Origin: a virus
IMG/VR virus record: IMGVR_UViG_3300042361_000315
Coordinates: 1-20,041 of that record
Length of the DNA: 20,041 nt
Direction: 5' to 3' (one strand)
In this document: piece after piece, positions 1 to 16,500 of the stretch
How positions within the stretch are numbered: position 1 is the first letter of the stretch
Layout: every line of letters starts with the position of its first letter
The notes under the pieces: model-generated
The model's input: only the letters and a program-made list of their open reading frames with translations
Database searches by the model: none
Told to the model about the DNA's origin: nothing
Program-made: the position numbers and the translations under genes

Positions 1-113
1 AGCCCCTCGACGACGGGGAGGACCTCGGACTTCAAGACGGCCGAGAAAGCCCGGAGGTCGGCCAACTCAATGGCCTCGGCCTCCGGGTTCTTTTCCTGCC
101 GCCGTGGCTTCAC
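1..113 (-). CDS. partial hypothetical protein (N-terminal 37 codons)
   Basis: A reading frame opens with GTG at 113-111, overlapping the TGA stop of the upstream nuclease gene (GTGA overlap), and stays open to the left edge of the window. The visible residues are charged and helical (start MKPRRQEKNPEAEAIEL), with no recognisable domain. The stop/start overlap is the same type used elsewhere in this genome, which is the main support for a real gene. It would be the third gene of the leftward recombination block. Its function cannot be told from 37 residues. Confidence 0.55.
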   Translation of the reverse strand, partial: MKPRRQEKNPEAEAIELADLRAFSAVLKSEVLPVVEG

Positions 114-961
114 CGGACGACCTCCAATTCGACGATGCTTGCGGCGTAGCCGGGCCACACGCTGTTCTTCTGGCACTCGCCGAAGTTGTGGACGGCGACA
201 CGCCACTCGTCGTAGGCGGTCATAAGGGTCCGGTGGGACAGGGTATAGACGGCAACGGCATAGGGCGGCTCCTTCTCTTGGGCAATCCACACGAAGCGGT
301 CGACGCCGCCGTGGCTCTCGCCTCGGAAGGCGGCATTGATGAGGGCCCGATATTGCACTTCTTGCAGGTCATAGCGGAAGTCCTTCACCGCCCACTTAAA
401 GCCTTCCGGGCTGGCGTCCTTGCAGGTTTTCAGGTCGATGATGGTTCCCGTCTTGTGGTCCCAGCCGTCGAGAAGCCCCTTGATGCGGACGCTCCCGGGC
501 GTCGGGTGCATCGGGTGATAGTCGCACTCAATCGCCATCTCGGTATCGGTGAGCCCGGCGAGAATCTTCGAGGCGACCGGGTGGGCCATAAGGGCGGCCT
601 TCATCGCCTTGATGGCTTCGAGTTGTTCGTCCTTGATGTAGACCTTGCGACCGAGGGACGCCTCGAACTCGGCCTTGATGGCCTTGCCTTCCTTGGTGCG
701 GGCATCCCACTCGGGCTTCATCACGACATTCTCGGAGAAGCGGTCGGGCGTCAGGACATAGGCGTGGTAGGCCGTGCCGAACATCATCGCATCGGTCGTC
801 TCCTTGGGCGTCTCGGTGGAGGCGAGGTAGTGGGCCGGGCTCCGCAGGAACTGCGTGAGCGAGGACTTCGAGAGGGCCGGGATGGCCCTGTAATCAGGGT
901 CCGGGATGTTGCGATGGACCTTGGTATTGCTGAACGAATGAGTGAGGGAGGGAGTATTCAT
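110..961 (-). CDS. RecE-like / DUF3799 PD-(D/E)XK exonuclease
   Basis: This 283-residue protein belongs by pattern to the phage PDDEXK-like nucleases related to the RecE (exonuclease VIII) C-terminal domain. From ATG 961, the visible motifs are SKSSLTQFLRSPAHY (31-45), FGTAYHAYVL with His67, RIKGLLDGWD with Asp165, IIDLKT with Asp177 and Lys179, and the Q/Y motif YDLQEVQYR near 198-205. These are the metal-binding and catalytic elements of the fold. Family members resect double-stranded DNA 5' to 3' and work with a single-strand annealing protein; here the likely partner is the ERF protein at 4522. An in-frame TTG at 997 overlaps the RusA stop, but ATG 961 has a better upstream AGGGAG, so I chose 961. 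Confidence 0.85.
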   Translation of the reverse strand: MNTPSLTHSFSNTKVHRNIPDPDYRAIPALSKSSLTQFLRSPAHYLASTETPKETTDAMMFGTAYHAYVLTPDRFSENVVMKPEWDARTKEGKAIKAEFEASLGRKVYIKDEQLEAIKAMKAALMAHPVASKILAGLTDTEMAIECDYHPMHPTPGSVRIKGLLDGWDHKTGTIIDLKTCKDASPEGFKWAVKDFRYDLQEVQYRALINAAFRGESHGGVDRFVWIAQEKEPPYAVAVYTLSHRTLMTAYDEWRVAVHNFGECQKNSVWPGYAASIVELEVVR

Positions 962-993
962 CGCTCCCTGTAATACCCTTTTCGTTTCAGCCG

Positions 994-1482
994 TCAAGCG
1001 TCATCTTCGGCCTGTATGTCAAGGCGTGGGAAGTCGCCCTCGGTCTTGCAAAGCAGGAGCCGGGAGACGACGGCGTCGTTCGTGAACCATCCGGCGGCGA
1101 CAAGGCAATCAATCACGGCTTTGGCGGCGTTGTCTAGGTCGGGCCTGACTGTGCAAGGGACTTCAAGCCGGAGTTTGCACCCTCGGGACTTGCGTCTCCG
1201 CTGTGGCATCTTGAACGCCCAATGGATAAGCAGACACACCGGGCCGCTTAACGGCTCCGGGGGTCGCATAGCCCTAGCCCCCATCGTGAATGCGTCGAGG
1301 AACGGCCTTATTTTCGCCGTCCTTTTTTTCCCGACGAAGAGGCGGCCGTCCCTCGTTCGTAGAATCTGTGTAGATGATTGATGTGTGGCCCGGGGGGGTT
1401 CCGCTTGGTAGACAAATCTGGCCCGAACAACGCCGCCAGATGACAGCCGATGAGAATCGGAACTCCGACCGCCACAAAACAT
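994..1482 (-). CDS. rusA: RusA-family Holliday junction resolvase
   Basis: RusA cuts four-way DNA junctions as a dimer. The C-terminal half carries the family signature RPDLDNAAKAVIDCL followed by GWFTNDAVV. The three acidic residues of E. coli RusA (D70, D72, D91) are matched in spacing: the two Asp of PDLD, then Asp in NDAVV exactly 19 residues after the second. The first family strand is FVYQAEPPRATHQ, so roughly the first 18-20 residues after the chosen start are extra. The start is uncertain: ATG 1482 has a weak AGG close by, ATG 1530 has AGGG seven bases upstream but gives a longer non-family extension, and TTG 1536 is also open. It is the first gene of the leftward block, with its stop next to the RecE-like gene. 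Function is well supported; the exact N-terminus is not. Confidence 0.82.
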   Translation of the reverse strand: MFCGGRSSDSHRLSSGGVVRARFVYQAEPPRATHQSSTQILRTRDGRLFVGKKRTAKIRPFLDAFTMGARAMRPPEPLSGPVCLLIHWAFKMPQRRRKSRGCKLRLEVPCTVRPDLDNAAKAVIDCLVAAGWFTNDAVVSRLLLCKTEGDFPRLDIQAEDDA

Positions 1483-1524
1483 AGACCTAGCATTACGAGT
1501 ATTTCCATAGCGGCGGCGAGGAGA

Positions 1525-1546
1525 TTGCATTTGCAAGCCCTGTCAA
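1525..1546. promoter_or_regulatory. divergent control region with 12-bp dyad
   Basis: The space between the leftward RusA gene and the rightward HTH gene holds an inverted repeat TTGCA-TT-TGCAA at 1525-1536. Next to it, a perfect TTGACA -35-like hexamer on the minus strand occupies 1546-1541, but I see no matching -10 at 16-18 bp. On the plus strand a poor pair TTGCAA (1531) and TAGCGT (1553) has a 16-bp spacer. A dyad between divergent operons, one of which starts with an HTH protein, suggests an operator. This is inference; no promoter is convincing on sequence alone. Confidence 0.3.
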
Positions 1547-1565
1547 GACCGATAGCGTATGGAGT

Positions 1566-2042
1566 ATGAAATACGAGAGCGACCCCAAGCGACTGCCGAC
1601 CGACCCGAACAACGAACACACGGGGACGAACCTGACCGACGTCCAGCGTGAGGCCGTCCACAAGTTGCTCGACGACGGAGTGGGCACGGCCGAGATTGCC
1701 AAGCGTCTCGGCCACTCGAAGCACACAGTCATCGCCGTCCGCAGGGCCCGGGAGGATGCCAGCGGCGGGCTCAACCTGAACAGTTGGAAGAAGGCCACGG
1801 CCGCCACGATGGCCGCCATCGTCGCCAAGGGTAGCACCCGGCTCCTGACCGAAATCGAGAACATCCCTCCGGGCCAACTGCCTTTGGCCTTGGCCATTAT
1901 GACCGACAAGGTCCTCGCCTTGCAGGACGCCCCGGCCGTTGTCGTGGAGCATCGCCTACGGGTAAGCCACGACGACATCAACAAGATGCTCAAAGGGGAC
2001 GTCATCGACATCCCTCCGGCCGACCCGAAGGAAGGCACTTGA
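1566..2042 (+). CDS. helix-turn-helix DNA-binding protein
   Basis: This 158-residue protein has an N-terminal HTH at about 24-61 (LTDVQREAVHKLLDDGVGTA, then EIAKRLGHSKHTV as second and recognition helices). It is followed by a helical region with LALAIMTDKVLAL and an acidic-basic C-terminus. Proteins of this plan (HTH, then an 'AIxxDKxxAL' helix) are common in phages and are usually annotated as HTH proteins or terminase-small-subunit-like; I cannot decide between regulator and packaging roles. It is the first gene of the rightward block, directly after the divergent control region, which favours regulation. A GGAG lies only one base before the ATG, too close for a standard ribosome site. Confidence 0.75.
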   Translation: MKYESDPKRLPTDPNNEHTGTNLTDVQREAVHKLLDDGVGTAEIAKRLGHSKHTVIAVRRAREDASGGLNLNSWKKATAATMAAIVAKGSTRLLTEIENIPPGQLPLALAIMTDKVLALQDAPAVVVEHRLRVSHDDINKMLKGDVIDIPPADPKEGT

Positions 2043-2054
2043 CAGGGTGGCGGT

Positions 2055-2071
2055 GCCTTGTATCACAAGGC
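2055..2071 (+). promoter_or_regulatory. hairpin covering the ribosome site of the next gene
   Basis: GCCTTG-TATCA-CAAGGC forms a perfect 6-bp stem with a 5-base loop just before the ATG at 2077. The AAGG that would serve as Shine-Dalgarno (2067-2070) is inside the 3' arm. There is no following T run, so it is not a terminator. A role in limiting translation of the 2077 gene is inference. Confidence 0.35.
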
Positions 2072-2076
2072 CCGCT

Positions 2077-2349
2077 ATGATTCACGAGTTTAATAACCCA
2101 ATGCCTGTCGAGACGGACCTCGGCTATGGTATGCTCATCTACGTCCGGTGCGGCGGCACGTTCTCGAACGACGTGTTCGCCATCGCCTTGGACAAGGACG
2201 GAGTCATCCGGCATTTCACGTCCGAGCAGTTCAAGTTGGTCCGCAACGATACCTTCGGCATCCGCACCGAGCCCGAGTGGCAGGGCGAAGATGACGAGGA
2301 CGACGACGGCGGCGACTCCTACCATCACAAACACGCCTTCGGACAATGA
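2077..2349 (+). CDS. small phage protein of unknown function
   Basis: A 90-residue protein starting MIHEFNNPMPVETDLGYG. It has a compact beta-rich core (GMLIYVRCGGTFSNDVFAIAL, then DKDGVIRHFTSEQFKLVRN) and a strongly acidic tail (GEDDEDDDGGD). I do not recognise the family. The start at 2077 has AAGG six bases upstream; a longer in-frame opening at 2047 overlaps the hairpin and has no ribosome site, and ATG 2101 is an alternative. Its stop overlaps the ATG of the next small gene (ATGA). The acidic tail and place in the replication block would fit a small regulatory or DNA-mimic-like protein, but that is speculation. Confidence 0.65.
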   Translation: MIHEFNNPMPVETDLGYGMLIYVRCGGTFSNDVFAIALDKDGVIRHFTSEQFKLVRNDTFGIRTEPEWQGEDDEDDDGGDSYHHKHAFGQ

Positions 2350-2510
2350 AGAAGAAGAAGAAGTGTAAGCCCCAGAAACGCAGACCAGAGATTATGAAAC
2401 CCGGACTCAAACAACTGACGCCCTTCGAGCGACAGGTCATCAAGGAAACCATGGCCGCCATCAATGAACGCTGGAAGAAGTTGTTCGCCCTCAACAAGTG
2501 CAAGTCGTGA
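2346..2510 (+). CDS. small basic protein, 54 residues
   Basis: This short gene opens with ATG inside the previous stop (ATGA at 2346-2349) and ends at TGA 2508-2510, which overlaps the GTG start of the initiator gene. The product is very basic: it begins MKKKKKCKPQKRRPEI and then has one predicted amphipathic helix (LTPFERQVIKETMAAINERW). No family is recognised. The overlaps on both sides are the main reason to accept it. A nucleic-acid-binding role is possible from charge only. Confidence 0.6.
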   Translation: MKKKKKCKPQKRRPEIMKPGLKQLTPFERQVIKETMAAINERWKKLFALNKCKS

Positions 2511-3178
2511 GCCAACCCAAGTTCACAGGCATCTGGATTCCTGCCGGGGTGTTCAACAACAACAACCTGACCACGTCCGCAAAACTCCTCTACGGGGTCG
2601 TGGCGGGCTTGGACGGTGATGATGGGTGCTACGCCTCCAACGCCTACCTCCAACGCCTCCTAGGCGTCAGCGAGAGGGGCGTTCAGGTCCTGCTATCGGA
2701 GTTGGACGCCGCTGGTATCATCCAGCGGGCCGAGGTCGATGGCCGACGTATCATCCGCACGGTTGAAAGCATCGCCTTGGGGGGTGCAGAAATCTGCGGG
2801 GGGGGGATGAAGAAATCTGCGGGGGAGGGGTGCAGAAAACTGCACCCATATAACAAAGATGATAACAAAGAGGATAAGATACCCAAGGGAAGGGTAGCCA
2901 AGTCCCCTGATTTCATGCTCACCCAGCAACCAATCCACATGAAGGTTCCCGAGTTCGCCGCCGCTTGGGTCAGGTGGGCAGAGTATGCCTACCCGAAGAA
3001 GAAGGTCCCCTACATGACCTACATGGGTCAGGTGGACTTCCTCAACAAGATGACCCCGGACGAAGCCGTGGAGTGCATCGAGCAATCCATCCGCAACGGT
3101 TGGAAGGGCCTGTTCCCTGTCCGCAAATCCAAACACCAGACCAAAGCCCTAACCAAAAACGACCATGAGCAGTTTTGA
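2507..3178 (+). CDS. lambda O-like replication initiator, winged HTH
   Basis: This 223-residue protein has the two-part build of phage replication initiators. Residues about 20-85 form a helix-turn-helix domain (LTTSAKLLYGVVAGL, CYASNAYLQRLLGVSERGVQ, LLSELDAAGII) of the kind found in O-like and HTH_36 proteins. A low-complexity linker (about 92-135) joins it to a C-terminal domain (about 147-205, WVRWAEYAYPKKK to IRNGWKGLFP), likely the helicase/loader contact region. The DnaC-like ATPase follows with a 14-bp overlap, the classic initiator-loader pair. The chosen start is GTG 2507, which forms GTGA with the upstream stop; GTG 2498 is also open. The linker DNA holds three 23-bp iterons and an AT-rich stretch, so the gene probably contains the origin. 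Confidence 0.78.
   Translation: MSQPKFTGIWIPAGVFNNNNLTTSAKLLYGVVAGLDGDDGCYASNAYLQRLLGVSERGVQVLLSELDAAGIIQRAEVDGRRIIRTVESIALGGAEICGGGMKKSAGEGCRKLHPYNKDDNKEDKIPKGRVAKSPDFMLTQQPIHMKVPEFAAAWVRWAEYAYPKKKVPYMTYMGQVDFLNKMTPDEAVECIEQSIRNGWKGLFPVRKSKHQTKALTKNDHEQF
2781..2849 (+). repeat. three 23-bp iterons inside the initiator gene
   Basis: Three tandem units lie at 2781-2803, 2804-2826 and 2827-2849. The shared core GAAATCTGC / GAAATCTGC / GAAAACTGC starts at 2789, 2812 and 2835, exactly 23 bp apart. Units 1 and 2 agree at 20 of 23 positions; unit 3 agrees with unit 1 at 16 of the first 17. Two units have dyad symmetry (GCAGA-AA-TCTGC; GGGTGCAG-AAAA-CTGCACCC). Since 23 is not a multiple of three, the units are read in different frames and encode different residues, so the repetition is kept at DNA level. 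This matches the iteron array of the lambda origin within gene O. Confidence 0.72.
2848..2881. other. AT-rich candidate DNA unwinding element
   Basis: Directly after the third iteron lies a 34-bp stretch with 8 G/C bases (about 24%), far below its surroundings. It contains two near-identical 12-mers, TAACAAAGATGA (2851) and TAACAAAGAGGA (2863). Iterons followed by an A-rich tract is the order found in the lambda origin. It also encodes the charged linker NKDDNKEDKI, so the composition may be partly a coding effect. Confidence 0.55.
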
Positions 3179-3836
3179 CATCTCTTGCCATTGTGGGAAG
3201 CGTGGAGCCCTGCTTGCTAACACAGAAGGAAAGTTGACCCGGTACCATCGGTGCAGGGAACACATCGAACCCGACCGCATCAAGGCTGACGGGCTCGGAG
3301 AGATTCAGTTCGTCCCGTCCTACCCTCCGCTGTTCAAGAACACCGAAGTCGCCAAGTTGCATCCCCGGTTGCAGTCTGCCGCCGATTGGGTTCCGAGTGA
3401 ACAGAAGTCTGGGCTCCTGCTCCACGGCACGACAGGCGTAGGCAAGACCCGGCTTGCTTGGCACGTCGTCAATCGCCTGTGGGTAGACAAGGCCCGGCAG
3501 GACATCAATATGCCATACAGGTTCCTGACCATGCGGAAGTTCGAGGGGCTCATCGAAGAGTCCTTCGGCGAGAAGGCCCACGCCCGGATGCTGGATGACC
3601 TCATCAAGATTGACCTGCTTGTCTTCGACGACTTGGGCAAGGAGAGGGCTACGCCTAGGCTGGCCTCTGACCTGTTCGCCGTACTCGACGAGAGGTCGAC
3701 GGCGATGCGGCCGACTATCATCACGACCAACTTCAACGGCCCGGCACTCGTCGACAGGTTCGACGACAAGGAGATGGCTAACGCCTTGGTCCGCAGGTTC
3801 CGTGATTACTACTCCCTCGTCGGAGCCGGGGCTTGA
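3165..3836 (+). CDS. DnaC-like helicase loader ATPase
   Basis: A 223-residue AAA+ ATPase of the DnaC/IstB type, which places the replicative helicase on DNA at an origin. Walker A is GTTGVGKT (88-95), Walker B LLVFDD (151-156), sensor 1 TTNFN (187-191), and an Arg-finger-like ALVRRFRD lies near the C-terminus. The N-terminal 33 residues have three Cys and two His (CHCGK at 8-12, HRCREH at 28-33), suggesting a small zinc-binding knob. It overlaps the initiator gene by 14 bp, so the two are probably co-translated. No replicative helicase is in the window, so the host or another phage gene would supply it. ATPase class is clear; the loader role rests on context. Confidence 0.87.
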   Translation: MSSFDISCHCGKRGALLANTEGKLTRYHRCREHIEPDRIKADGLGEIQFVPSYPPLFKNTEVAKLHPRLQSAADWVPSEQKSGLLLHGTTGVGKTRLAWHVVNRLWVDKARQDINMPYRFLTMRKFEGLIEESFGEKAHARMLDDLIKIDLLVFDDLGKERATPRLASDLFAVLDERSTAMRPTIITTNFNGPALVDRFDDKEMANALVRRFRDYYSLVGAGA

Positions 3837-3845
3837 CATACGCAC

Positions 3846-4370
3846 ATGGCGACCCATCTTGAACAACGCAGGACTTGGTTGAGTCTTGCGGGTTGCATAG
3901 CATCAACCGGGATGCCAGCCGTGTGGCTGGCGTCCCTTACCTTTCTCACCGCCCCTGCCATGGCCACGCTGGTCGACGAGGACTACCTTGACCGGGTGGC
4001 TAGGATTGAAAGCGACAACAGGCCGTCAGCCGTCGGACGTGCCGGGGAACTCGGAGCCTATCAGTTGAAGAAGGCCGCATGGGAAGACTCCGTCCGCAGG
4101 ATGTTCGGCCGCATCCCGAAGGCATACGCCTACTGCCGGGCCAACTGCTTCGACCCGGCCAAGTCCCGTGCCGTGGCCCGTGAGCATCTCCTCTGGCTCG
4201 AACGCACCATGACCAAGGAAGGTTTCACGCCGAGCAAGATTTCGCTTTACATGTCTTACAACTTGGGCATGACTATGTCCGAACGCTATGCACACAATCA
4301 CAGACACCCGTCGCTTGCTGACCAACGAAAGGCCGTATTCGCAAGGGCCGAACGCATTCTCCATCCATGA
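3846..4370 (+). CDS. exported lytic transglycosylase / endolysin-like
   Basis: A 174-residue protein with an N-terminal signal or signal-anchor (basic n-region EQRR, hydrophobic stretch about 11-40 ending APAMA) followed by an SLT/lysozyme-like domain. Motifs are RIESDNRP with candidate catalytic Glu55, GELGAYQL (67-74) and YNLG (138-141). Family enzymes cut the glycan strands of peptidoglycan. It may be the phage endolysin, though it sits with replication genes and not with the holin-like genes. The first ATG at 3846 is chosen because it keeps the signal sequence; ATG 3912 and 3960 are alternatives. A 12-bp hairpin (3909-3936) lies in the signal-coding part. Cys97 and Cys101 could form a disulfide. 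Confidence 0.75.
   Translation: MATHLEQRRTWLSLAGCIASTGMPAVWLASLTFLTAPAMATLVDEDYLDRVARIESDNRPSAVGRAGELGAYQLKKAAWEDSVRRMFGRIPKAYAYCRANCFDPAKSRAVAREHLLWLERTMTKEGFTPSKISLYMSYNLGMTMSERYAHNHRHPSLADQRKAVFARAERILHP
3909..3936 (+). other. 12-bp stem-loop in the 5' part of the lysozyme gene
   Basis: GGGATGCCAGCC pairs with GGCTGGCGTCCC around a GTGT loop: 12 pairs with one G-U. It starts 73 bases after the DnaC-like stop and is followed by TTACCTTTCTC, which is not a proper T run. It may slow translation or partly stop transcription between replication and lysis functions. It also covers the alternative ATG at 3912. Confidence 0.45.
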
Positions 4371-4525
4371 AAACGAAACAACCGAAACTCAATCCCGTGT
4401 CCGAACAGATGCTGACCGTTCGTGTCACGAAGAAACTCATGTCCGCATTGAACAAGACGTCCAAGAAGAATGGTATGTCTCGTTCGGACTTCGTCAGGTC
4501 CTCCCTTGAACGTTCCGTCGCATGA
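4367..4525 (+). CDS. ribbon-helix-helix (CopG/Arc-like) DNA-binding protein
   Basis: A 52-residue protein, opened by ATG inside the previous stop (ATGA) and closed by TGA that overlaps the ATG of the ERF gene. The core fits the ribbon-helix-helix pattern: a short beta strand MLTVRVT (15-21), helix KKLMSALNKTSKKNG, then the MSRSDFVRSSLERSV helix. Such proteins bind DNA as dimers and usually repress transcription. Here it is a likely regulator of early or replication genes. The family call rests on pattern only, but the strand-helix-helix fit is good. Confidence 0.7.
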   Translation: MKTKQPKLNPVSEQMLTVRVTKKLMSALNKTSKKNGMSRSDFVRSSLERSVA

Positions 4526-5301
4526 ACATCTTTACCTACTCCTACTCTCCCAACCCAGATACTAACATGCTAAATAACATCACGCCCGAACTCGCCGCCG
4601 CTTTGGTGGCCGCCATCAACGAAGCCGGAACGAGCGTCGTCGCTGACGCCCAGAACCCGTTTCATAAGAACTCCTATGCCACCCTCGGGGCTCACCTGAC
4701 GGCGACCAAGGCTGTGTTCGCCAAGCACGGCCTCGCCATCGTGCAGTTCCCGCACGGCGACGGCAATCAGGTCGGCGTCAACACGATGGTCATCCACAAG
4801 GAAGGCGGCTACATCCAGAACTACGTCACCCTGCCCGTCGGTGAAACCGTGAAGGGTCAGGATGCTGGCTCCCTGTTCTCGTACCTTCGCCGTTATGCCA
4901 TCGCCGCCGTGGCTGGTCTGGCTACCACGGATGATGACGCCGAGGCTGACCGCATCGTCCGCACCGCCGCCCCGGCTCCCGCCGCCAAGGCCGCCGCCGC
5001 TGTCGCCGGAGCCCGTGCCATGCTCAAGGCCGCCCCTGCCGCTTCCGTCCCTGCCGGGGACATCGACCCGTCCATGGTCCTGCCGTTCGGCCGTAGCAAG
5101 GGCTTGCAGATTGGCGAACTCGGCGTCGAGGACCTTGCCTATTGGGCGAACACTTGGGAGCCCCGTCCGTTTGAAAAGACGGGCCGTGTCTCCGAGAAGG
5201 ACCTCAAACTCAAGCGTACCGCCAAGGCCCTCTACGCCAACGCCTCGGGTGCCGCCCCGGCTGAAGCCGCCGACGCTCCCGCTGACGACGTTCCGTTCTA
5301 A
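4522..5301 (+). CDS. erf: ERF-family ssDNA annealing protein with SSB-like tail
   Basis: ERF proteins anneal complementary single strands during phage recombination. The N-terminal domain (about 20-145) shows the family pattern: NPFHKNSYATLGAHL, then the signature GSLFSYLRRYAIAAVAGLAT followed by an acidic TDDDAEAD. An Ala/Pro linker (149-178) leads to a second small domain (186-212, LPFGRSKGLQIGEL to LAYW), which resembles the DUF3820-type 'FGKxKG' modules. The last residues, PADDVPF, mimic the acidic tip of bacterial SSB (DDDIPF in E. coli), which recruits repair proteins. The start at 4522 overlaps the upstream stop; ATG 4567 (residue 16) is also possible and neither has a clear ribosome site. 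The likely partner is the RecE-like nuclease of the leftward block. Confidence 0.85.
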   Translation: MNIFTYSYSPNPDTNMLNNITPELAAALVAAINEAGTSVVADAQNPFHKNSYATLGAHLTATKAVFAKHGLAIVQFPHGDGNQVGVNTMVIHKEGGYIQNYVTLPVGETVKGQDAGSLFSYLRRYAIAAVAGLATTDDDAEADRIVRTAAPAPAAKAAAAVAGARAMLKAAPAASVPAGDIDPSMVLPFGRSKGLQIGELGVEDLAYWANTWEPRPFEKTGRVSEKDLKLKRTAKALYANASGAAPAEAADAPADDVPF

Positions 5302-5582
5302 TGGGACGCAAGCGAAACATCCGGCAAGAACTTGTTGAGCAGACGGGAGACGAAAGTCTCCTGTTTGCCGACGGGTTTGACTCCTGTATAATTGGCTGGG
5401 CTGTTTATAACGGCGTATGCAAGGTCATCTATGACCGAGGCAAGATGCTCTTGGAACTAGCCAAGACCATGACGTTCGAGGAGGCAGACGAATACTTCCT
5501 CTACAACGTACAGAACGCCTATGTAGGCGACCGAACCCCCATTTATGTTGAACGACTCCACAAATACGTCGTCGACCGATAA
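5301..5582 (+). CDS. conserved small phage protein
   Basis: A 93-residue protein whose ATG overlaps the ERF stop (TAATG). The pattern SLLFADGFDSCIIGWA, then KVIYDRGKMLL, then FEEADEYFLYNVQNAYVG, then TPIYVE is familiar from many phage genomes, where the protein has no assigned function. The central part looks alpha/beta. A very stable hairpin with a GAAA loop lies in codons 13-23. It sits between the annealase and a nuclease, so a recombination-linked role is possible but unproven. Confidence 0.72.
   Translation: MGRKRNIRQELVEQTGDESLLFADGFDSCIIGWAVYNGVCKVIYDRGKMLLELAKTMTFEEADEYFLYNVQNAYVGDRTPIYVERLHKYVVDR
5339..5368 (+). other. 13-bp RNA hairpin with GAAA tetraloop
   Basis: Bases 5339-5351 pair with 5356-5368 around a GAAA loop (5352-5355): 13 continuous pairs, two of them G-U. 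The inner arms are GGGAGAC and GTCTCC. GAAA is a GNRA loop, favoured in structured RNA, and only the plus-strand transcript has it. No T run follows, so it is not an intrinsic terminator. It lies about 40 bases inside the 93-residue gene. A role as RNase III site, translation brake or protein-binding site is inference. Confidence 0.5.
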
Positions 5583-5790
5583 GAAGCCGGAAGTCGAACT
5601 GCGGAACCTAGTCCTGACCTACGATGGAGAGACTGTCTCCTTTGTGAACAAAAGGTTCTTCGACGAACTTGCCGCAGAGGTAAGGCTTCTCACCTCACGC
5701 AACTCTATGCTCAAGCAGGAACTTGCACACCGGGATGAACGCATTGCCTTCCTTATTCAGCAAGCGTCGGACGCCCTGAAGAAGACCTGA
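5545..5790 (+). CDS. small coiled-coil protein
   Basis: An 81-residue protein overlapping the end of the previous gene by 38 bp. An N-terminal beta segment (VELRNLVLTYDGETVSFVN) is followed by a helix with heptad-like spacing (residues about 40-78: FFDELAAEVRLLTSRNSMLK to AFLIQQASDALKK), suggesting a dimeric coiled coil. No family is recognised. Its TGA overlaps the ATG of the nuclease gene (TGATG), so the two may be co-translated. Confidence 0.65.
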   Translation: MLNDSTNTSSTDKKPEVELRNLVLTYDGETVSFVNKRFFDELAAEVRLLTSRNSMLKQELAHRDERIAFLIQQASDALKKT

Positions 5791-6206
5791 TGTCCGGCTG
5801 GAATCCCAAGTTCGACGCAGACCTTCAGTTCGGCCAGCAAGGCGAACGATGGCTGATGTGGCTCGGGACGGACCAAGCGAAGGTCGAGGTTAAGACCGAA
5901 CGGGATACTTGGATGAACACCAAGAACGCCGTGTTCGAGTTCAGGTGCCGGGAAAAGCCGTCAGGCATCACGACGACGCAGTCGGACTATTGGTTGCACA
6001 TCTTCAGCGAACGAGGTCAGGCCGTGATGGCCTTCTTGTTCAGGGTCGATGAACTCAAGCAGTTCCTCCGGGCCGTCTACAAGGACCCGGCGAAGTACGG
6101 TGCTAGGGTCTGCAAAGGGGGCGATGACAACAGGTCAGAAGTTATTCTGGTCCCCGTTCAGGAACTTCACCGGGTCGCTCGCTGGCCTTTTTCCGCCTTA
6201 CCTTAA
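5790..6206 (+). CDS. PD-(D/E)XK-type endonuclease-like protein
   Basis: A 138-residue protein with the compact pattern of small phage nucleases of the restriction-endonuclease fold. FGQQGERWL supplies Glu19, KVEVKTERD carries the ExK pair Glu33/Lys35 (with Asp28 shortly before), and a strand NAVFEF is followed by KPSGITTTQSDYW, which is typical of this phage family. Proteins of this type cut branched or other structured DNA. It is the second such nuclease in the window and ends the rightward block. Its last 65 bp overlap the 3' end of the convergent lipoprotein gene. Fold assignment is good; substrate is unknown. Confidence 0.75.
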   Translation: MSGWNPKFDADLQFGQQGERWLMWLGTDQAKVEVKTERDTWMNTKNAVFEFRCREKPSGITTTQSDYWLHIFSERGQAVMAFLFRVDELKQFLRAVYKDPAKYGARVCKGGDDNRSEVILVPVQELHRVARWPFSALP

Positions 6207-6927
6207 CGTCGGTATCAAACAATTCGTAGATGCCGTAGGCGATGCCTAGGACTACTACGACGCCCACAGTCCACTTAAACCAAGCGGCCTCGACGATGTC
6301 TTGGATGACTAGCGGGGCGGCTCCTACCGTAAGCCCGGCTAGGGAGATAAGCACCCCAGCCTTGACGCCCTTGCCCATCCAATAGCCGATAAGGGCTATG
6401 CCTACCCCCGCAACCGTAAGGATGGTACAGAGCAACAGGCACACATCCCGGAGGTCCTCGTAGGCTTCCTGACGAATCTCGGCCTGACGCTGTTCCTCTA
6501 GCATACGCAGTTTCTCCTTCAGGTCCTTGTTCTCGGAGTCGACCTTTTCGACCCTGTCATAGAGTGCGGTTGTTTCGGCGTCTACCTTGCTCGCCTTCTC
6601 CTTCTCGGCCTTCATGGCGGCCTCGGACTTGAGTGCGTCCTCGTACTTCTTGACCTGTTCCTGAGTAGGCTTCTTAAGCCCGGACATCCTGTCCGTGGTC
6701 AGTTCGACCAATTTGGAATGCGGAGGGGTGACGCCGGGCTTGGCCGCAATCAGGGCGGCGGCGGCCTCCGATGCCTCATGCTCGACCCGGTCGATGTACC
6801 TGTCCTTCTCAGGGTTGTCTACAATCTTGACGACCTCTTTGACCTCGGCCTTTGGCTCGGGCTTCGAGGAGCAACCACTCAACGCAAGAAGCGAGACAGC
6901 AAGAACTGCCAGATGCGGTCTAACCAT
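6142..6927 (-). CDS. coiled-coil lipoprotein with C-terminal TM segments, spanin-like
   Basis: A 261-residue protein with a lipoprotein signal (LALSGC, lipidated Cys19), a Lys/Glu-rich coiled coil (about 90-158), three hydrophobic segments (about 162-183, 188-209, 215-237) and a basic tail (KVRRKKASER). An outer-membrane lipid anchor joined to an inner-membrane anchor by a coiled coil is the plan of unimolecular spanins, which fuse the two membranes in the last step of lysis. Known u-spanins are shorter and have a single TM, so this is an enlarged version or a different envelope protein. It follows two small membrane-protein genes, overlapping the previous one by 8 bp, in the usual place for lysis genes. 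It implies a diderm host. Confidence 0.6.
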   Translation of the reverse strand: MVRPHLAVLAVSLLALSGCSSKPEPKAEVKEVVKIVDNPEKDRYIDRVEHEASEAAAALIAAKPGVTPPHSKLVELTTDRMSGLKKPTQEQVKKYEDALKSEAAMKAEKEKASKVDAETTALYDRVEKVDSENKDLKEKLRMLEEQRQAEIRQEAYEDLRDVCLLLCTILTVAGVGIALIGYWMGKGVKAGVLISLAGLTVGAAPLVIQDIVEAAWFKWTVGVVVVLGIAYGIYELFDTDVKVRRKKASERPGEVPERGPE

Positions 6928-7252
6928 TGTCCTTTTGCTTTGCCTTTAGGGCGAGCCGGATGACGCTTGCGGTCACGACGACCAGACCGATTACGAGTGA
7001 ACTTGTGCATACAATCTCAAAGTTGCTGATGATGTGCTTGGCTTGGTCTATGCTCACGCTTGTGTTTTCCGTGACCAGACTGCCGTTAGTAATAAGGGAT
7101 ACGGATGACGACGCATCCGTGATGGCAAGCATGCCAGCCACCACCGTACTTGCCGCCATGAACCCTGCGATGCCAAAGGCTACGAGGAACAGCGACTGAA
7201 GGAAGATGATGCTCTCAACGACGCTTTGCTTTGGTTTGTCGTTTCTTCGCAT
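6920..7252 (-). CDS. two-TM membrane protein, lysis-associated
   Basis: A 110-residue protein with basic ends ([18 protein letters not shown]) and two hydrophobic segments (about 14-44 and 80-103) joined by a polar Ser/Thr-rich loop of about 35 residues. The charge pattern predicts both ends in the cytoplasm. Size and topology fit a class II-like holin or an antiholin partner of the upstream gene, with which it overlaps by 38 bp. There is no family signature; the role is from context. Confidence 0.55.
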   Translation of the reverse strand: MRRNDKPKQSVVESIIFLQSLFLVAFGIAGFMAASTVVAGMLAITDASSSVSLITNGSLVTENTSVSIDQAKHIISNFEIVCTSSLVIGLVVVTASVIRLALKAKQKDNG

Positions 7253-7556
7253 TGAGGTCGGGTGCGTTGCGGAATTGCCTGATGACCCAGTCGATGAGTT
7301 CCGGGCCAGCCATTCCAGAGAAGGTTAGGATTACGGACTTGTAGATGCCAGCAAGTTCAAGCGGCCAGACTGCGAAGTAGGACAGGACGCCAATGATTAC
7401 GGACGCTAGGATACGCCGAGTCCACCAGATTGCCGGATGGGCCTCATCAGTAACAAGCAAGCGGGCGAGCATCCCGGCTCCTCCAAAGAGGGCCGTAATC
7501 CATCCACCTCGCTTAAAGTCCTGCATGGCGGCTTCGTAGTCTGGTCCAGTTGTCAT
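7215..7556 (-). CDS. putative holin
   Basis: A 113-residue membrane protein with hydrophobic segments at about 17-35, 48-70 and 71-90, and a strongly basic C-terminus ([10 protein letters not shown]). The pattern [15 protein letters not shown], then [19 protein letters not shown] resembles LydA-type and other phage holins with three segments. Holins form holes in the inner membrane and time lysis. Its ATG overlaps the stop of the giant gene (ATGA), so lysis genes are probably read with the late virion genes. Holin function is inferred from size, topology and position. Confidence 0.65.
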
Positions 7557-10500
7557 TTCGGTTCATCTCTACGGACACGTCGCTTGGCTTCTTCAAGGTC
7601 ATTGTAGATGCCGACAAGTGCGTTCTGGGGGTTGTATAGACGGAACTTACGACCCGCAAGATATGTGATGGCATACCCTGCTCCGTTACGCCACATGGAA
7701 CCGTTTTCGGTAGTATCGTTCGTCCAAGACCTCCAGATGACGGCTGGCTGACGAACAGGTGCGGGCAACGGACTAGGCGTAGGCGTCGGAGTCGGCGTAG
7801 GCGTGGGCGGAGGCGTCGGCGTGGGCGTAGGCGTCGGCGTGGGCGTGGGCGTAGGCGTCGGCGTGGGCGTAGGCGTCGGCGTGGGCGTGGGCGTAGGCGT
7901 GGGCGTGGGCGTAGGCGTGGGCGTCGGAGTCGGCGTAGGAGTAGGAGTAGGCGTAGGCGTAGGCGTAGGCGTAGGCTTCGGCTTAAGCGAGGTAGGCTTG
8001 ATGTCCCTACTCCGGTGAGTAGCGGCCAATCGAAGGGACTCCTCAATGTTCTGCTCAAGCAACGTCTTTGTCTTGCTGTTCAGTCCATAGAAATCTGCGA
8101 TGGCAGAGAAATACTCTCCAAGCATTCCACCGAGGTTCTTGAACCAACGGGTCAATCCTCTGACAAAACTAGGCTTGATGGTTCCACCAAGAGGGTCGTT
8201 CGGGTCCTTGGGGAAGGAGTTCTTGCCACGTTCAAACATGTCAAGATTGCCCATGTCTACCGCAGGGATTTCACGAAGGACTGCCGCCTCGTAGGGTCCA
8301 GCAAAAGCCATAATCATGAACTCAATCGGGTTCCAGTATCGGTACAGGCTGGTATCAATACGAGTATTGTAACTCCTTTCTTCGTCAGGAGTGCCCTGAT
8401 ACTCCTTGTCTTTCCTGACGATGTAATGCTCGACCTCCTCATACGTCCCATCCTTGTGCCATTTGGAACTGTTTAAATGCTCAACCATGTCGCTGACTTC
8501 AGTAGACTGATTGATGTTCTTCCTGATAAGGCTCATCAAGGTCACTTCCTTGACGTCAACGCTGTTCAACTTCGTCTTGTTGTTAGTCTTTTTAGTCCTT
8601 ACCTTTACCTTGATGTTGTTCAGGGCATGCTCGTAGACATGCAGGACACGGGCCGCCGCAATCTCGGTACGCATGGCATCCAACTTGGCGTCATAGTCAG
8701 ACTGTGTCATCTGTCCGGACTTCAGTTCACGTTCATACTTTTTGAGTCGCATTCCGACGTCCGTCTTGAATCCGTTTGCCATGAGGAACCAGTTATCGCC
8801 TTTCGTTCCGGTTCTGGTGAAAAGGTTGAACAATGTCGTCTGTGCGGTCGTGCTTGAGATGCCTTCAGGCAATCCTCCACTACCTCGCATGGCCCTGAGG
8901 GCCTCTCCGTGGAACGTATGAAGAATCTCCTCGAAGAACACGCCCTCGAATCCACGGCCTTGGATTCCGAGCATCTTAAAATCTCCGAGTTTTCCGGTAT
9001 TCGTCCACCTGTCACGATGTCCCTTGATGATGTCAGCAAGCGTACCAAGCATCGGCTCGTTCTGCATCTGCTTTGAACGGCCACCGGGAATGGTAGTGGC
9101 TTCGAGGCCGCCACCAGCCCGTGCTTGGGTAGTCTTGATTCTTCGATTGAGCAGACTTACCCTTTTGGTCGGGTCGGACCTGTAATTGGATACAGCCCCC
9201 TCAAACATGGCCTTAATCATCTCGGCCGTCGTGGACATGAATCCACTCTGGCCGATGAGGAAGTCTAATGCGTCTTTAATTAGGATGCTACCTTGCGTCC
9301 TGTCAGCCCATTCGATGAACTGCTCGAAAGTGTGAACCTTTGGGTCTGGAGTATCCTTCTTGGGGATAGGGGTAAACGGCGGACGGTTGTCGAGTCGATT
9401 GCCTACCCCCCTGTCTAGTCTGGCGGCGTTAGGACCATCCTGACCCTCGACTGGCTTCATGCTCATCTGAGCATCGCCCATGTCGTCCGGCTTGATGGCG
9501 TCGCTCAAGGTATCCACGGCTTCTGTGAGGGCTTCAATCTGCTCCTCACGACGCTGGTATCCTTCGGTGTTCTCAAACGCCTCGGAGTTAGACTGAACGT
9601 CCTCCAGTTCATTCAAAATCTCACGGAGCGACTCGACTTGGTCGACGATGTCGGAGATGGCAACGTCCTTGGCTTCCTGAGTGGTAGCCTTGTCGTAGGC
9701 TTCTAGGGCCTCGGCGGCTGACTTTAGGATGCCCTTCTTGGTGCCGGACTTGTTGCCGTACAGTTCGGTCGTGTGGTCCTTGGTGAAGGACGTGGAGTCC
9801 AGAGTGGATTCGACGTCTTCAAGCAACGTGCGGAAGGCACCCGTGTCGATGGCCTTAGGCTTTGGAATCTCGACCTTGGGTTCGTTTGCTCCGGCGAACT
9901 GAACTTCGTCATAGATGCGGCCGAGCCACTTGTTGAAGTCGGCCGGGTCCTTGTACATGGAGTACCTGTCGCCTCCGAACATCTCAGAACCTTCACGGAT
10001 ACGCATGGCCTTGACCTTGTCTCCGGCATCGGAGGCCATGATGTCCTGATACACCTTCTCGTTGATTAGGCGATAGAACTGACCGTGCTTGTTCTTGCCA
10101 AACTGCAAGACACGGGCGTACATGGAGGACTCGTCATCGGCGTCCTTACGATAGCGGAGTAGCGAGCCGACAAGGGACTCAGGATTGAAGTTGGCACCCT
10201 GCTCGGCCAAGAACTCCTTCATGTTCCGGGGAGGCTGGCCTCCGTCCTCGACGGGCTTGTAGTAGGCGTTGGGGTCTAGTTTGGTGATGGTAGAACCACC
10301 CGGAGCGTTTGGCTGACGAGTAGAACCTTTACCAAAGATTTCCTCACGGATGTGGAAGGGAATGTTATCCTTGTTGATTACCGAGCCAAAAAGGTATTCC
10401 GCACCAAGAGAGCGTACACGCTCTCCAGCCTCTGAATAGATAAGTTTTCCGTACCCCTTGTTACGCATGTCGCTACGAACATCAACTCTTGTAATGAACG

Positions 10501-13500
10501 CATGGTCGCCAAACTGGGCACCCTTTGCACCCTTTTCAAAGCGAACACCAATCTGTGCTATTGGCTCCTTTCCACCACCCTCCCAAGGATTGTCGAATCG
10601 AATGGTAAAGCCATAGGGGACATCTTCTCCCGTAAACGGAGAAGCATCAGAGTCATAGTCTACCTTGATTGTAAGCCCATCAAGAATCTCTGGGTTTTCA
10701 TTTGCGTATCTACCTAAGAATCTTGAGGTGAACTGCTTTGAACGAACATCGTATTTCTTTCCGGTAGGTTCAAGTTCGCCTTCGGCTGGCTTCATACGGA
10801 TGTCACGCTTGGTCGTGTCGAACGTGCCACGGTTGTACTCAACGTCCTTTACCTTGCGTCCGTCAAACGGAACGTATCCGAACACGTCTTCTCCGAGGAA
10901 ACTATTGGCGAAATCTGGCAGTTTCTCATTATAACTTCCGGTATCCTTTTGACGCTGATTACGGACTTCGGCTTCGACACGATAGATTACGCCGTCATAG
11001 CCCATCTTCTTCATCATGGTCTTGAACGGCTCGACGCCACCTGCGGCCTTTATTTCCATGTGCAGGACCATCTCGTTGTCGAAGTACATCGGCTTATCCA
11101 TTCGGACAGCCACTCCATACAACTGACCCGGGTCCTTGGGATTACCTTCCTTGTCTAGACGCCAAGAGAAGTCGGTACCATCCTTGTTAATCTTACGAAG
11201 GGTGAAGTTAGTGGCGAGGACCTTGTCGTTGGTGTAATGGGTTCCGAGCGAGGAGTCCACGCTACCCTTTCGTGCCCAATAGGACTTATCTTTGTCCATC
11301 CCATCACGCAGGTACTTGAAGCGACGACGGCTCGTCGAGCCATGGTATGCCAATAACGTGACCCCGGTCGGGAATACCATGACGTCGGGGGAGTTCACTT
11401 TGCCATCCTTTAGGGACGGACGAGGAATGTGAGTTCCCTTGTCATAGATGAACGTAGCGGCGTCATCATCCGGAAGGATAAGTTCGGTACCCTTGGCAAA
11501 CGCCCTGACCTGAGGGTCGTCATAGGCGTCCTCCATCCGGCGAAGCGGAGTAGGACCTTCGTCGCCCTCGGCTGGCTTGAAGTTGTACCGGGCATCCTCA
11601 CGGGAGAACTCACCATAGTTGCTGGAAGCCTTGACGTTGGTGGTGGTCTGGTCGGCAACGATGGTAGGAATGCCTTCGTTGATGGTCCGGTCAGGGACGA
11701 CTACGGCATCAAAGCCATTTTCAAGAAGATGGCGGTTCATCCTGTTCCAATGCTCACCCCAAGTTTCCATGGCGACTTCCATGTCTCCCTTGAAGTGTAC
11801 CTCCTTCTTGTCGTAGCCCTCAGGACCATCCATCAGGAAGCGGCCTTCTTCAACCATCTTCAGGAAGGCGTCGTAGTCGTATTCGACAAGACCTTCATAC
11901 ATGGTTCCTTTGCCATACTCAGGTTCATCGGCGAACTCATCCTTGATGGTGTTTTCCCAGAAACTGCGGAGAACCTTGTCTAGTTCAGGATTCCTCTTTG
12001 CAACATCCTTAAGTTTTGTAAGCACCGCAGGTTTTTCGCTACGGAGATAGTACATGTCAGCCATGTCTCCCGTATCCGCAAACCCTTCAGCCGTGTTCTG
12101 TTCGGAAATGAAGTAGTTGGGGTCCATGCGTCCAGCAAGGTTCATTCCATACTGGTCAGCCCTTCTTGTTACAGTCTCTCCGGTCTTAGGGTCCCAGTAT
12201 CTCCTTTGCTGACGTTCTCCAAACTCGTCAAAGTTACGCTTGCTCATCACACCCTTGAACACGGTCGTGACGAATCCCTTTTCCATGTCGGCAGGACGCA
12301 ACTGCTGGCTAACGCTCTTAATGAACGGAAGCCCTCCAGCCCACTTGCGGAACTGCGAAGTATCCGGGTAGACCCACAGTTTGCGGGGCTGGTTCTTACG
12401 GGCTTCTTGAGCCCGCTTGGACTGCCAGTCCGGAATAGCGTCGCCTTCGGCGGGCTTCAGGTTCTTCGTGCCGACGGTAAGCGGCATGTTGTCCGGACCG
12501 TCGCCACGGGGAAGCGGGGTGGCCCCTTCTTCCATGTCCAAGGTAGTCTCAATGACACGATGCTGGTCCTTGGCGATGTCCTTGCGAAGAACGAACACGG
12601 TGTCGAAGTCTCCACCGTCGTTGATGTTGTTCAGAACGACGCCGTCGTGTCCCTGAAGGAATGCTTCTTGAACAAGGAACTTCATCCGGCCGCTAAGAGG
12701 GTCGGCGGCGTAGTCAAAGACAAGCGGGTTCCTCATCTTGAACACCGCTTTCAGCATCTGTGGCTTCGTGTAATCCGGCCTATCAGGGCTGGTTTGATAC
12801 ATTGGAGACAACGCAGTCTCGTCAGAAGCGGCAAAGAAGATGCCGTGGCGGGCGGCCTCGGCTCCGGTGGTTTCTCCAGCCTTAGCCGGGTCAAGTTCAC
12901 GGACCTTAAGCAATTCGGCAGAAGGAGTACCGTGTACGCCTACCCCAACGAAACCTACTCCGGTCTGGAACTGGTTAGCATAGGTATTGGTTTGATAGAA
13001 CCTACGCATCGGCAGTTTTTCGACTAGGTACTTTCCTAGTCCGTCATGGACCTTATCAGGGTCAAGATTGCTGATGTACTCCTTGGCGTCCAGAACACGT
13101 TTGGCATAACCGCCAAACTTAGGGCCTTGGACGGCAGACCTTTGGTAATGACCCCTATTCTTGGTGGGCAGTCCCTTCTTTAGTTCGGCCTTCAACCTCT
13201 TGATTTCGTTGCCCATCTTGGCCTGAGCCTCAAGTTCTCCTGCGAACGGCATCAGGTCACGGACCATCTGCATCTGGCCCTTAATTTGGGTTCTGTTTGA
13301 AGCCTGAAGGTTGCTGACGAAGTTCGGAATGAACTCATCCATCGAGGTCGCCTCGTTGGCCGCTTTGAGCAAGGCGTCAAAGCCGCCGTACCAATTCATC
13401 GGAGTTCCGACTACCTTACCACCGATGTACTTGGAAAGCACATCATTGAGTCCCTTGCTCGACGTGCCAAAACTGGGCTGGCCAGTCTGCTGACCGATTT

Positions 13501-16500
13501 CAAGACGCTCAAGTTGCTCCTCAATCATCAGTTCACGGAGTTCACCGTTGAAAGCAGATTCGACCTCCATGATGAGACGTTCTGCTTGTTGCTTCGTGAC
13601 GAGTCCGGATTCGATGTTACGCTTGAAGTCCGTAAACTGTTCGTCGGCGGTCTGACGGATGATGGGAAGTTCCTCGACAAACTCCTTCATCGCCGTGGTC
13701 TGGAACAGGTCGCCAAGACGAACGGCTTCAGCGGCTTCCGAATCGTCGACAGGCTTAAACATCTTCTGTTCGGCCTGAACATTACGAACAGAGGTAGCAA
13801 GGTTGTCCTTGTCACGCTTGTTGACCTCACGGGTAATGGCCCGAGAGGCTTGGTCGGTGCTGGAGAACGAACCTAGGGAGTTGCCCTGAGAGTCGTAAGC
13901 CCGGGCCATCGAGCCCTTGCTGATGATGTTGTAGCCAAGCGGGTGCTTGTAGACCGTGCCGTTAGGAGTCTCCTCGGCGGTCATTTCGCTCGGCTTGTAG
14001 TTACGACGGGTGCGGTCGTAGACCTGAGTATGGTCGTAAGGCACGATGTCCGGACGGACGGCCACATGGCTCATCCGGTCGATGCGGAGGGTCTGGTAGA
14101 CGAAGAACTCGCCACGGCCAGCGGGTCCGGCGTAGCCCGGACGGGGAGGATTGATGTAGGACTCGCCCTGCTTGATGGCGGAGCCGAGGACCTCATGGAA
14201 AAAGTTACGCTTCTTGGCACCGACGTCGCCGCCACCGAACAGGTCGGCAGAGGGTATGGCGTTCGGGTCGCTGAGGTTCTGGAGGTAGCGGTAGAAGTCC
14301 GCTTGGAAAGAATCGTAGTCGTTGCCGTACAGGGCACGGGCCTCAGGCTGGGCATAGACGGCCTGACTGCGGCGACCAAGATTGTCGTAGTCGAGGGAGT
14401 GGGCAAGGACGCCGAAGTTGGCTTCGCCGTTCTTGGTCATCGTGATTACCGTTTCCAGCGAGTGAGGAACGAACACACGTCGGGTCATCGGGACGACACG
14501 GGCGTCTCCGGTGTTGACGACACGGGGAGGATTGAGTCCGGAGCCCTGCTCCATGGACTCAGCCCAGTAGTTAGACTGAAGGACGTTCGCACCTTTGCCC
14601 TTCTTGGCGGCCACCTCACGGATGGTCTTGTACTTGTCGGCAAGGGCCTGAGACATGTGGCCGTTCTTGACGATGACCTCAAGTTCACGGTCCGAGAAGG
14701 TGCCTACGACAGTCGTGTCTCCATTGACGTCGACGATGGTCTGGGTGCCACGCTCGGCGGCCGGAATGGTGTTGACGGTGTCAATAATGCCTTGGACACG
14801 GGTCTGGTTCTCACGACGCATCTGGGCTTCGGAGGTTTCCCGGGCACCGCCCTTGCGGTCACGACGGAACAGGCCGTCAAGGCCGTGAGTTTCGCTGAAC
14901 TTGGCACGTTGCTCCGGAGTCATGCCACGGAGGATTAGGTTGTCTGCCGTGTTGATGCCAGAGGCCGCACGGACCAAGTCACGCATCAGGTAGTCCAACG
15001 CAGAGAAACGGGTACGACGGCCGTCACGACGGAATACCTCGTCGATGTGTTCCGGACGGGGTTTCCCGGTACGCTCGTCGATTACGGTCCTAGAGAAATC
15101 GAAGTTAGGCATCGACTTCTTGAGTCGGGCTTCGGTGAAGGACATCCAACCCATCTTGAGGTTGTCGAAGATGCCACGAAGACCGGGAAGTTTGCCGCCG
15201 AAGAACAGGTAGTCGGGAGACTTGTCGTCCAGCCAATGATTGAAGTAGTAGGCACCGAACTCTTCGGAAAGATTCTCAAGGATGGCACGACCTTCCAGAC
15301 CGGACTCCGAGATGAGTTTTCCGGTAGTCTCGAACTCCTTCATGGCCGCATCCAACTGGTCCAACTTGGCCTTCTTCTGGGCAGGGTCCTTGTACTCGAT
15401 GTCAATGTACCGCTTGAACATCTCGTAGGCTTCTGCGGTCGGTACCTCGCCAGCACGGATAAGTTCACCCTTGTCGCCACGGACGCCGAGGATGGACTGG
15501 GTTACTGCGTCGGTGAAGTTCTTGGCGTACACGGAGGAACGCATGATGCCATGGAACAGTTCATGTCCGATGGCATTCTTCTTGGCCCATTCCGTGTTGA
15601 TGAAGATGTCAGTCGCACCGGACTTGTCCTTCTGAATGACGAAACCTTCCCAGCGATGGTACTGCGTCGGGTTAGCAGGGTCCTCTCCACGAAGCACACG
15701 ACCAGCACGGTCCGGGTCAAAGGTATCGACCAACTTGTTCTTCTGGAGGTAAGCCTCGAAGGAGGCACCATCGTGCATGTGCAGACGGGCACCGGGAGCC
15801 ACGGTATCAAGGCCGACGATGATGTGGTCGTAGGACTTGTCATGGACCTGACCCAATGCTCGAAGGAGCATCATGGAGTCGTATTGGGCCTTGTCCGTAT
15901 CCTTTAGGCCCTCGATGACCATGTCCGCTTGGATGCGGGTGCGTTCACGATGGACGTCAGTAACGGCTCGGCCTACGGCTCCACCGATAGCACCAAGGGC
16001 GGTACCGGAACCAGCACCAGCCGCCGCACCTTCAAGACCTCCGGCAAGACCGCCGAGGGCACCGCCAATTACAGCACCTTCAAGTGCGGCATCTCCGGCG
16101 GCATAGGCGTACCCGAAGATAGGGTCTACGGCGTCGATGATTTGAAGCATTCGCTTGGCCTGAGGCGTAAGCGAGCCAGCCTCGGCCTTAAGGGCACGGG
16201 CGGCATAGGAAAGGATACCACGCTGTTCCCTTCCGACCTGACGTCCGATGGCACCAAGAGTCTCGCCGATGCCACCCATGACGTTGGCGGCATAGTAGGC
16301 GTCGGATACGGTGGACCATCCGGGAACTCGGAGGGCAGAGGTGGCAAGTCCAGCACCCTGAAGGGTTTGGTGGAAAGCCTGAGGGGACATCCCAACGATG
16401 TCGCCAAACAAAGCAGAACCACGGGCTACGGCACCATCAATGGTTCCGCTGGTAGCACGGCCAATGAGTTCAAGGGGGGCTCCGGCGACACGCAAGGCAC

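Follow-up and report, generated by a model that had tools for sequence, protein, structure and literature searches.

Replication origins situated inside initiator genes are already known from a few model phages and plasmids. In phage lambda, an A-rich tract is adjacent to the iterons of ori-lambda and the loader gene P lies next door. The lambda iterons themselves are imperfect inverted repeats in O and are bound by O dimers (PMC7466680). In SPP1 gene 38/oriL, direct repeats in the initiator gene are found along with an AT-rich unwinding element and the helicase loader gp39 (PMC6316719); besides oriL, this phage uses another origin, oriR, and encodes a helicase of its own, gp40. In repABC plasmids, oriV is located inside repC, and its AT-rich tract was found essential by silent mutations (PMC3155836). 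RepA_N systems have semi-palindromic iterons that converge on a poly-A tract (PMC7145576). In pSK41 Rep, the prototype of RepA_N, sites in the middle of the rep gene are bound by a winged-helix N-terminal domain, and the part of the protein encoded by the origin is a linker that it can do without (PMC5703833). In pPR9, an HTH_36 N-terminal domain and origin segment stand in place of the RepA_N module and a mini-replicon replicates autonomously (PMC5703833); in staphylococcal initiators of this type (pfam13730), about 500 bp carrying domain and origin are exchanged as a unit (PMC5703833, citing Perez-Roth 2010). In PLE satellites, the RepA_N domain and the origin covary, the C-terminal domain is conserved, and an origin-directed nuclease probably selects for swapped RepA_N/origin modules (PMC8263062).

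The stretch described here, in the window (the whole IMG/VR virus fragment analyzed, 20,041 bases), is very probably a phage replication origin bound by its own initiator, as judged from sequence. By analogy, the system appears to work like lambda O/ori and SPP1 gene 38/oriL, and most of all like RepA_N plasmids. Among solved structures, its N-terminal domain is matched best in Foldseek by the RepA_N N-terminal domains 4pql, 4pt7 and 5kbj (best E 5.5e-3, probability 1.0, TM (target) 0.47-0.51, for a model of pLDDT 66), and semi-palindromic iterons which converge on an A tract in the centre of the rep gene are present in the window too. It differs from RepA_N in that PF06970 was not among the Pfam matches of the initiator up to E 0.1, the C-terminal domain shows no DnaD-like fold and a phage helicase loader gene comes next. 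The origin of PLE satellite RepA is intergenic while the sites of the window are intragenic (PMC7145576, PMC8263062). With pPR9 the locus shares the N-terminal family HTH_36, but pPR9 is a plasmid with the pSK41 C-terminal domain.

The earlier note on this DNA had seen in it the logic of the lambda origin. Iterons in the initiator gene followed by an AT-rich tract do agree with that, whereas by fold and iteron type the closest system is RepA_N and not lambda O. Inverted-repeat iterons inside the initiator gene are common to the window, lambda and its Stx-phage relatives (PMC7466680), and the adjoining AT-rich tract and loader gene of lambda are also found here. The iteron sequence is unrelated, with three iterons against four or six and units of 22-23 bp against 19 bp. 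Phage_rep_O, the family of the lambda O N-terminus, was not among the Pfam matches of the initiator, which carries only the broad PHROG 'O-like' label. The likeness to SPP1 is one of layout. In repABC plasmids the origin also lies inside the initiator gene, but repC has no iterons and the window has (PMC3155836); an RP-C match of the initiator N-terminus is weak and below threshold (E 0.02, 15.1 bits against a cut-off of 24.4).

Initiator gene, iterons and AT-rich tract

The initiator gene starts with GTG, which overlaps the upstream stop as GTGA, and encodes 222 residues when the Ser codon at 2510 is counted as residue 1. Its product matches HTH_36 (PF13730) across residues 19-71 (E 3.1e-9, 36.9 bits against a curated cut-off of 25), PHROG 678 'replication initiation O-like' across residues 9-214 (1.6e-12) and PHROG 270, replication initiation (6.5e-12). 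The AlphaFold model is composed of a winged-helix N-terminal domain, a disordered linker and a small helical C-terminal domain. Helices extend up to about residue 89, including 44-51 and 55-67, while residues 87-133 (pLDDT<50) form the linker, which is Gly- or Pro-rich. A sequence search of the whole protein against PDB gave no match, and the N-terminal profile gave general winged-helix matches only.

The C-terminal domain may be the contact for the helicase loader or the helicase. A model of this domain retrieved nothing with E below 2 among PDB folds. Assignment as DnaD-like found no support from fold, Pfam or PDB profile, though a distant relation is conceivable. For this domain without a recognisable solved fold, a role in loader recruitment is suggested by gene order. 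The next gene, overlapping the initiator gene by 14 nt, matches the PHROG 50 DnaC-like helicase loader (5e-25) and IstB_IS21 (5e-12), and a loader homologue is present near the initiator in 43 of 89 loci.

Features of the putative origin locus in the window
Feature	Position	Strand	Basis or remark
Replication initiator CDS	2507-3178	+	Pfam HTH_36 and PHROG 678/270 replication initiation
Winged-helix DNA-binding domain, residues 5-86	2522-2767	+	HTH_36 match, Foldseek
Recognition helix, residues 55-67	2672-2710	+	AlphaFold helix; covariation with iteron bases
Arg56	2675-2677	+	putative base-reading residue
Gln59	2684-2686	+	putative base-reading residue
Iteron 1	2779-2801	+	dyad core GCAGAAATCTGC at 2786-2797
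Iteron 2	2802-2824	+	core GAAGAAATCTGC at 2809-2820; left half-site degenerate
Iteron 3	2825-2847	+	full dyad GTGCAGAAAACTGCAC at 2830-2845
AT-rich tract, putative DNA unwinding element	2848-2881	+	lowest-GC 34-mer of the whole window
C-terminal domain (W..W ... I.QSI.NGWxGLF)	2897-3175	+	alignment of 35 sequences; AlphaFold pLDDT 79
DnaC/DnaI-like AAA+ helicase loader	3165-3836	+	PHROG 50, IstB_IS21

Three iterons with an exact 23-bp period in the linker of an O-like gene, which had been claimed from the letters alone, were recovered at 2779-2847 with periods of exactly 23 and 23 nt. Iterons 2 and 3 are 91% and 74% identical to iteron 1. Each contains a near-perfect dyad with the core pattern GCAGA-AA-TCTGC, and the three are read in three different frames, giving the peptides AEIC, MKKSA and CRKLH. 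The tract which directly abuts iteron 3 has 23.5% GC (24% in the earlier note), and the two 12-mers reported in it (2850-2861 and 2862-2873) are 11/12 identical. No exact iteron copy was found in the window outside 2779-2847, and the count of copies with two mismatches was near chance.

A score for three tandem 16-bp dyads (maximum 48) reached 41 in the initiator ORF. In 1000 synonymous-codon shuffles, with protein and codons unchanged, the mean was 34.7, the maximum 39, and none reached 41. The iteron array is the top tandem-dyad site of the 20 kb, the runners-up being simple (PT)n repeat DNA near 7.8 kb.

Conserved geometry and variable sequence in relatives

Relatives were collected from a first scan (16), from further scans and from cultured phages, giving 89 non-redundant initiators. 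Pseudomonas phage Skulduggery and Oceanospirillum phage GJ44 are examples of cultured relatives. With a threshold of >=0.80 for three tandem dyads in the linker (shuffle maximum 0.73), 64 of the 89 possess them in the same place. Copy 2 and copy 3 are spaced by 23 nt in 50 of these 64 genes, and copy 1 and copy 2 by 22 or 23 nt in 57. Only 13 of the 128 spacings are divisible by three, and only three genes read all copies in one frame. The half-sites fall into 40 distinct sequences among the 64 genes, while the iteron core is AAAA in 94 of 192 units. The dyads are as a rule followed by an AT-rich tract (mean GC 0.27, against 0.51 in N-terminal coding DNA, in the first set of 35 loci). Neighbouring iterons are separated by 6-7 nt, which form a G-run in 32 of the 64 genes and a C-run in 20, on the coding strand and whatever the iteron sequence (in the window, within 2779-2829). 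In any frame these runs are translated as Gly or Pro.

In the comparison with relatives, which the earlier note had proposed, it is the geometry, the symmetry and the AT tract that are kept, whereas sequence, frame and peptide all vary, so selection acts on the DNA. The suggestion of DNA-level selection made earlier thus gains from the three frames, the shuffles and the geometry kept in relatives. An origin embedded in the initiator gene, also claimed there, is supported by the HTH_36 and PHROG initiator matches, by the loader gene next to it and by the repeats and AT tract in relatives.

An independent search of IMG/VR by DNA pattern, with two TGCAGAAANCTGC close to each other, gave four contigs. 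One was the closest relative. Two (L019 and L021) share an unrelated repeat outside any initiator and were set aside. The fourth, L020, encodes a different wHTH initiator and has iterons and a CCATATAATAAAGA tract as in the window, in the linker but in another reading frame. L012, a close relative with an N-terminal domain 84% identical, retains one iteron and the AT tract. Its initiator is split into two overlapping ORFs in different frames (4956-5647), one with the DNA-binding part and the other with the C-terminal part, which would fit a decayed locus, a split gene or an error in sequencing.

Covariation with the recognition helix and alternative readings

Across 30 loci, iteron distance correlated with N-terminal domain distance when the C-terminal domain was controlled (partial r 0.52, p 0.0005), and not with the C-terminal domain when the N-terminal domain was controlled (r 0.00, p 0.49). 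The recognition helix explains a further share once the remainder of the N-terminal domain is accounted for (partial r 0.39, p 0.0005, 30 loci). Two natural swaps agree with the N-terminal domain as the reader of the iterons. L003 and L004 have 76% in common in the C-terminal domain and just 46% in the N-terminal domain, and their iterons are different; the window and L005 have the same iteron, with 72% in common in the N-terminal domain and just 30% in the C-terminal domain.

An unsupervised mutual-information scan of about 80 N-terminal columns against the six half-site bases in 62 loci ranked residue 56-base 3, residue 59-base 2 and residue 60-base 6 highest. These three residues are all located on the first turns of the recognition helix. 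Arg56 occurs with G at half-site position 3 in 37/37 (Fisher p 7e-14), and where Arg56 is lacking, 22 of 25 have no G there. At position 2, Gln59 is paired with T in 19/21 and Arg59 with G in 13/14. These sequences are not fully independent of each other; among independent phylogenetic pairs, Gln/Arg59 was concordant in 8/8, while for Arg56 only five pairs were available, of which four were concordant and none discordant. The Gln/Arg59 rule was fixed before the larger set was gathered and held in 11 of 13 later sequences. The Arg56 rule was derived from the full set, so its agreement in later sequences is no held-out test. Arginine to G and glutamine to A/T are common contact preferences. Most of the Firmicutes plasmid relatives carry Ser59 and lack Arg56, and their candidate sites are of a different type (TTAACA, TTGACA, TGCCCA). 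The Gln/Arg59 code as given is therefore one for the environmental subfamily. As E56 occurs with TTGACA, a G at position 3 does not need Arg56.

Because iteron sequence covaries with the recognition helix, binding of the iterons by the initiator protein is predicted, with strong indirect evidence. This covariation is the counterpart, by computation, of the binding check put forward in the earlier note. Iterons changing in step with the helix that would read them suggest a readable recognition code.

Such binding need not mean an origin. The iterons could be initiator-binding sites for autoregulation or plasmid-like copy control and not for replication start, and the covariation which argues for binding is independent of origin activity. 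It is also generally known that initiators of iteron plasmids often autoregulate. We consider this explanation unlikely, since the sites are positioned about 270 nt inside the gene and abut the most AT-rich tract, the pairing of sites with an AT tract recurs in relatives, and the layout matches the proven intragenic origins of pSK41, SPP1 and lambda (PMC5703833, PMC6316719, PMC7466680).

Two further explanations would take the function away from DNA binding. The dyads, each with an A-rich 4-nt centre, could fold as mRNA hairpins acting in translation control or mRNA stability. This is very improbable, and as a mechanism it is excluded by the covariation, which involves base-reading residues of a DNA-binding helix, and by the imperfect arms of several copies including iteron 2 of the window. 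That the repeats are a protein-level feature, a flexible Gly-rich linker lengthened through G-tract slippage and without a function as DNA, would suit a disordered linker rich in Gly or Pro with G- or C-runs as spacers in 52 of 64 genes. It has hardly any probability left: the copies stand in different frames and encode different peptides, their spacings are seldom divisible by three, the pattern is lost on synonymous shuffling, and the iterons covary in sequence with the recognition helix. By these, linker expansion is excluded as the mechanism. Counted against the origin reading itself are the iteron loss in L012, the degenerate left half-site of iteron 2, the GC skew, the C-terminal fold and the incomplete independence of the sequences used for covariation.

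Proposed mechanism, its meaning and neighbouring genes

The origin would be built into the linker-coding part of the phage's own initiator gene. The winged-helix N-terminal domain, probably as a dimer, would bind each palindromic iteron through the recognition helix, with Arg56 reading base 3 and Gln59 reading base 2 of each half-site. Three dimers placed 22-23 bp apart may form a complex which melts the adjacent AT-rich tract. The C-terminal domain would then recruit the helicase loader, which is the product of the next gene, and the loader could place a DnaB-type helicase on the melted tract.

By a slight balance of probability, HTH_36 phage initiators possess a hypervariable but geometrically fixed origin in the linker, in which a residue code predicts and retunes specificity and the 40 half-sites reflect avoidance of cross-talk or attack. 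Three dyads at 22/23 bp would then be kept through any frame, across environmental and cultured lineages. If true, a code of residue 56 for base 3 and residue 59 for base 2 would allow origin specificity to be shifted by one or two substitutions, and the many specificities would point to selection against cross-talk or against origin-directed attack by competing elements. Such a residue-level code with a locked 22/23-nt geometry over many specificities was not found in the open literature searched, so its novelty is provisional. The same origin layout is readable in the sequences of dozens of phages, uncultured as well as cultured, which makes origins and initiator specificities predictable for metagenomic phages. 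About 60 natural pairs of recognition helix and iteron constitute a testable recognition code. With this paired set one can begin to ask what makes replication origins diversify so quickly, a matter in which PLE satellites are a precedent (PMC8263062).

GC skew is uninformative as an origin marker in the window, and the cumulative minimum at the site which had been proposed as a check was not seen in seven near-complete relatives (L283-L299). In five of these seven contigs the detrended cumulative skew has a weak maximum, which lies 1-1.6 kb downstream (in gene direction) from the putative origin and is probably related to gene orientation.

Positions 1-8000 of the window gave no close DNA relative among cultured phages. 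A recombination module is present around the initiator (110-997 (-), 994-1536 (-) and 4522-5301 (+)), with an exonuclease VIII-like protein (PHROG 412, 2e-65), a RusA-like resolvase and an Erf-like annealing protein as members. Directly 3' of the helicase loader, an SLT transglycosylase-domain protein is encoded at 3846-4370 (+). A single ORF of 3243 residues extends over 7553-17284 (-) and shows weak matches to ART-PolyVal, the ADP-ribosyltransferase of polyvalent proteins, and to GNAT acetyltransferase. It possesses a long Pro-Thr repeat near the C-terminus (DNA about 7.8-8.0 kb), and its product is probably a giant phage polyvalent or internal virion protein.
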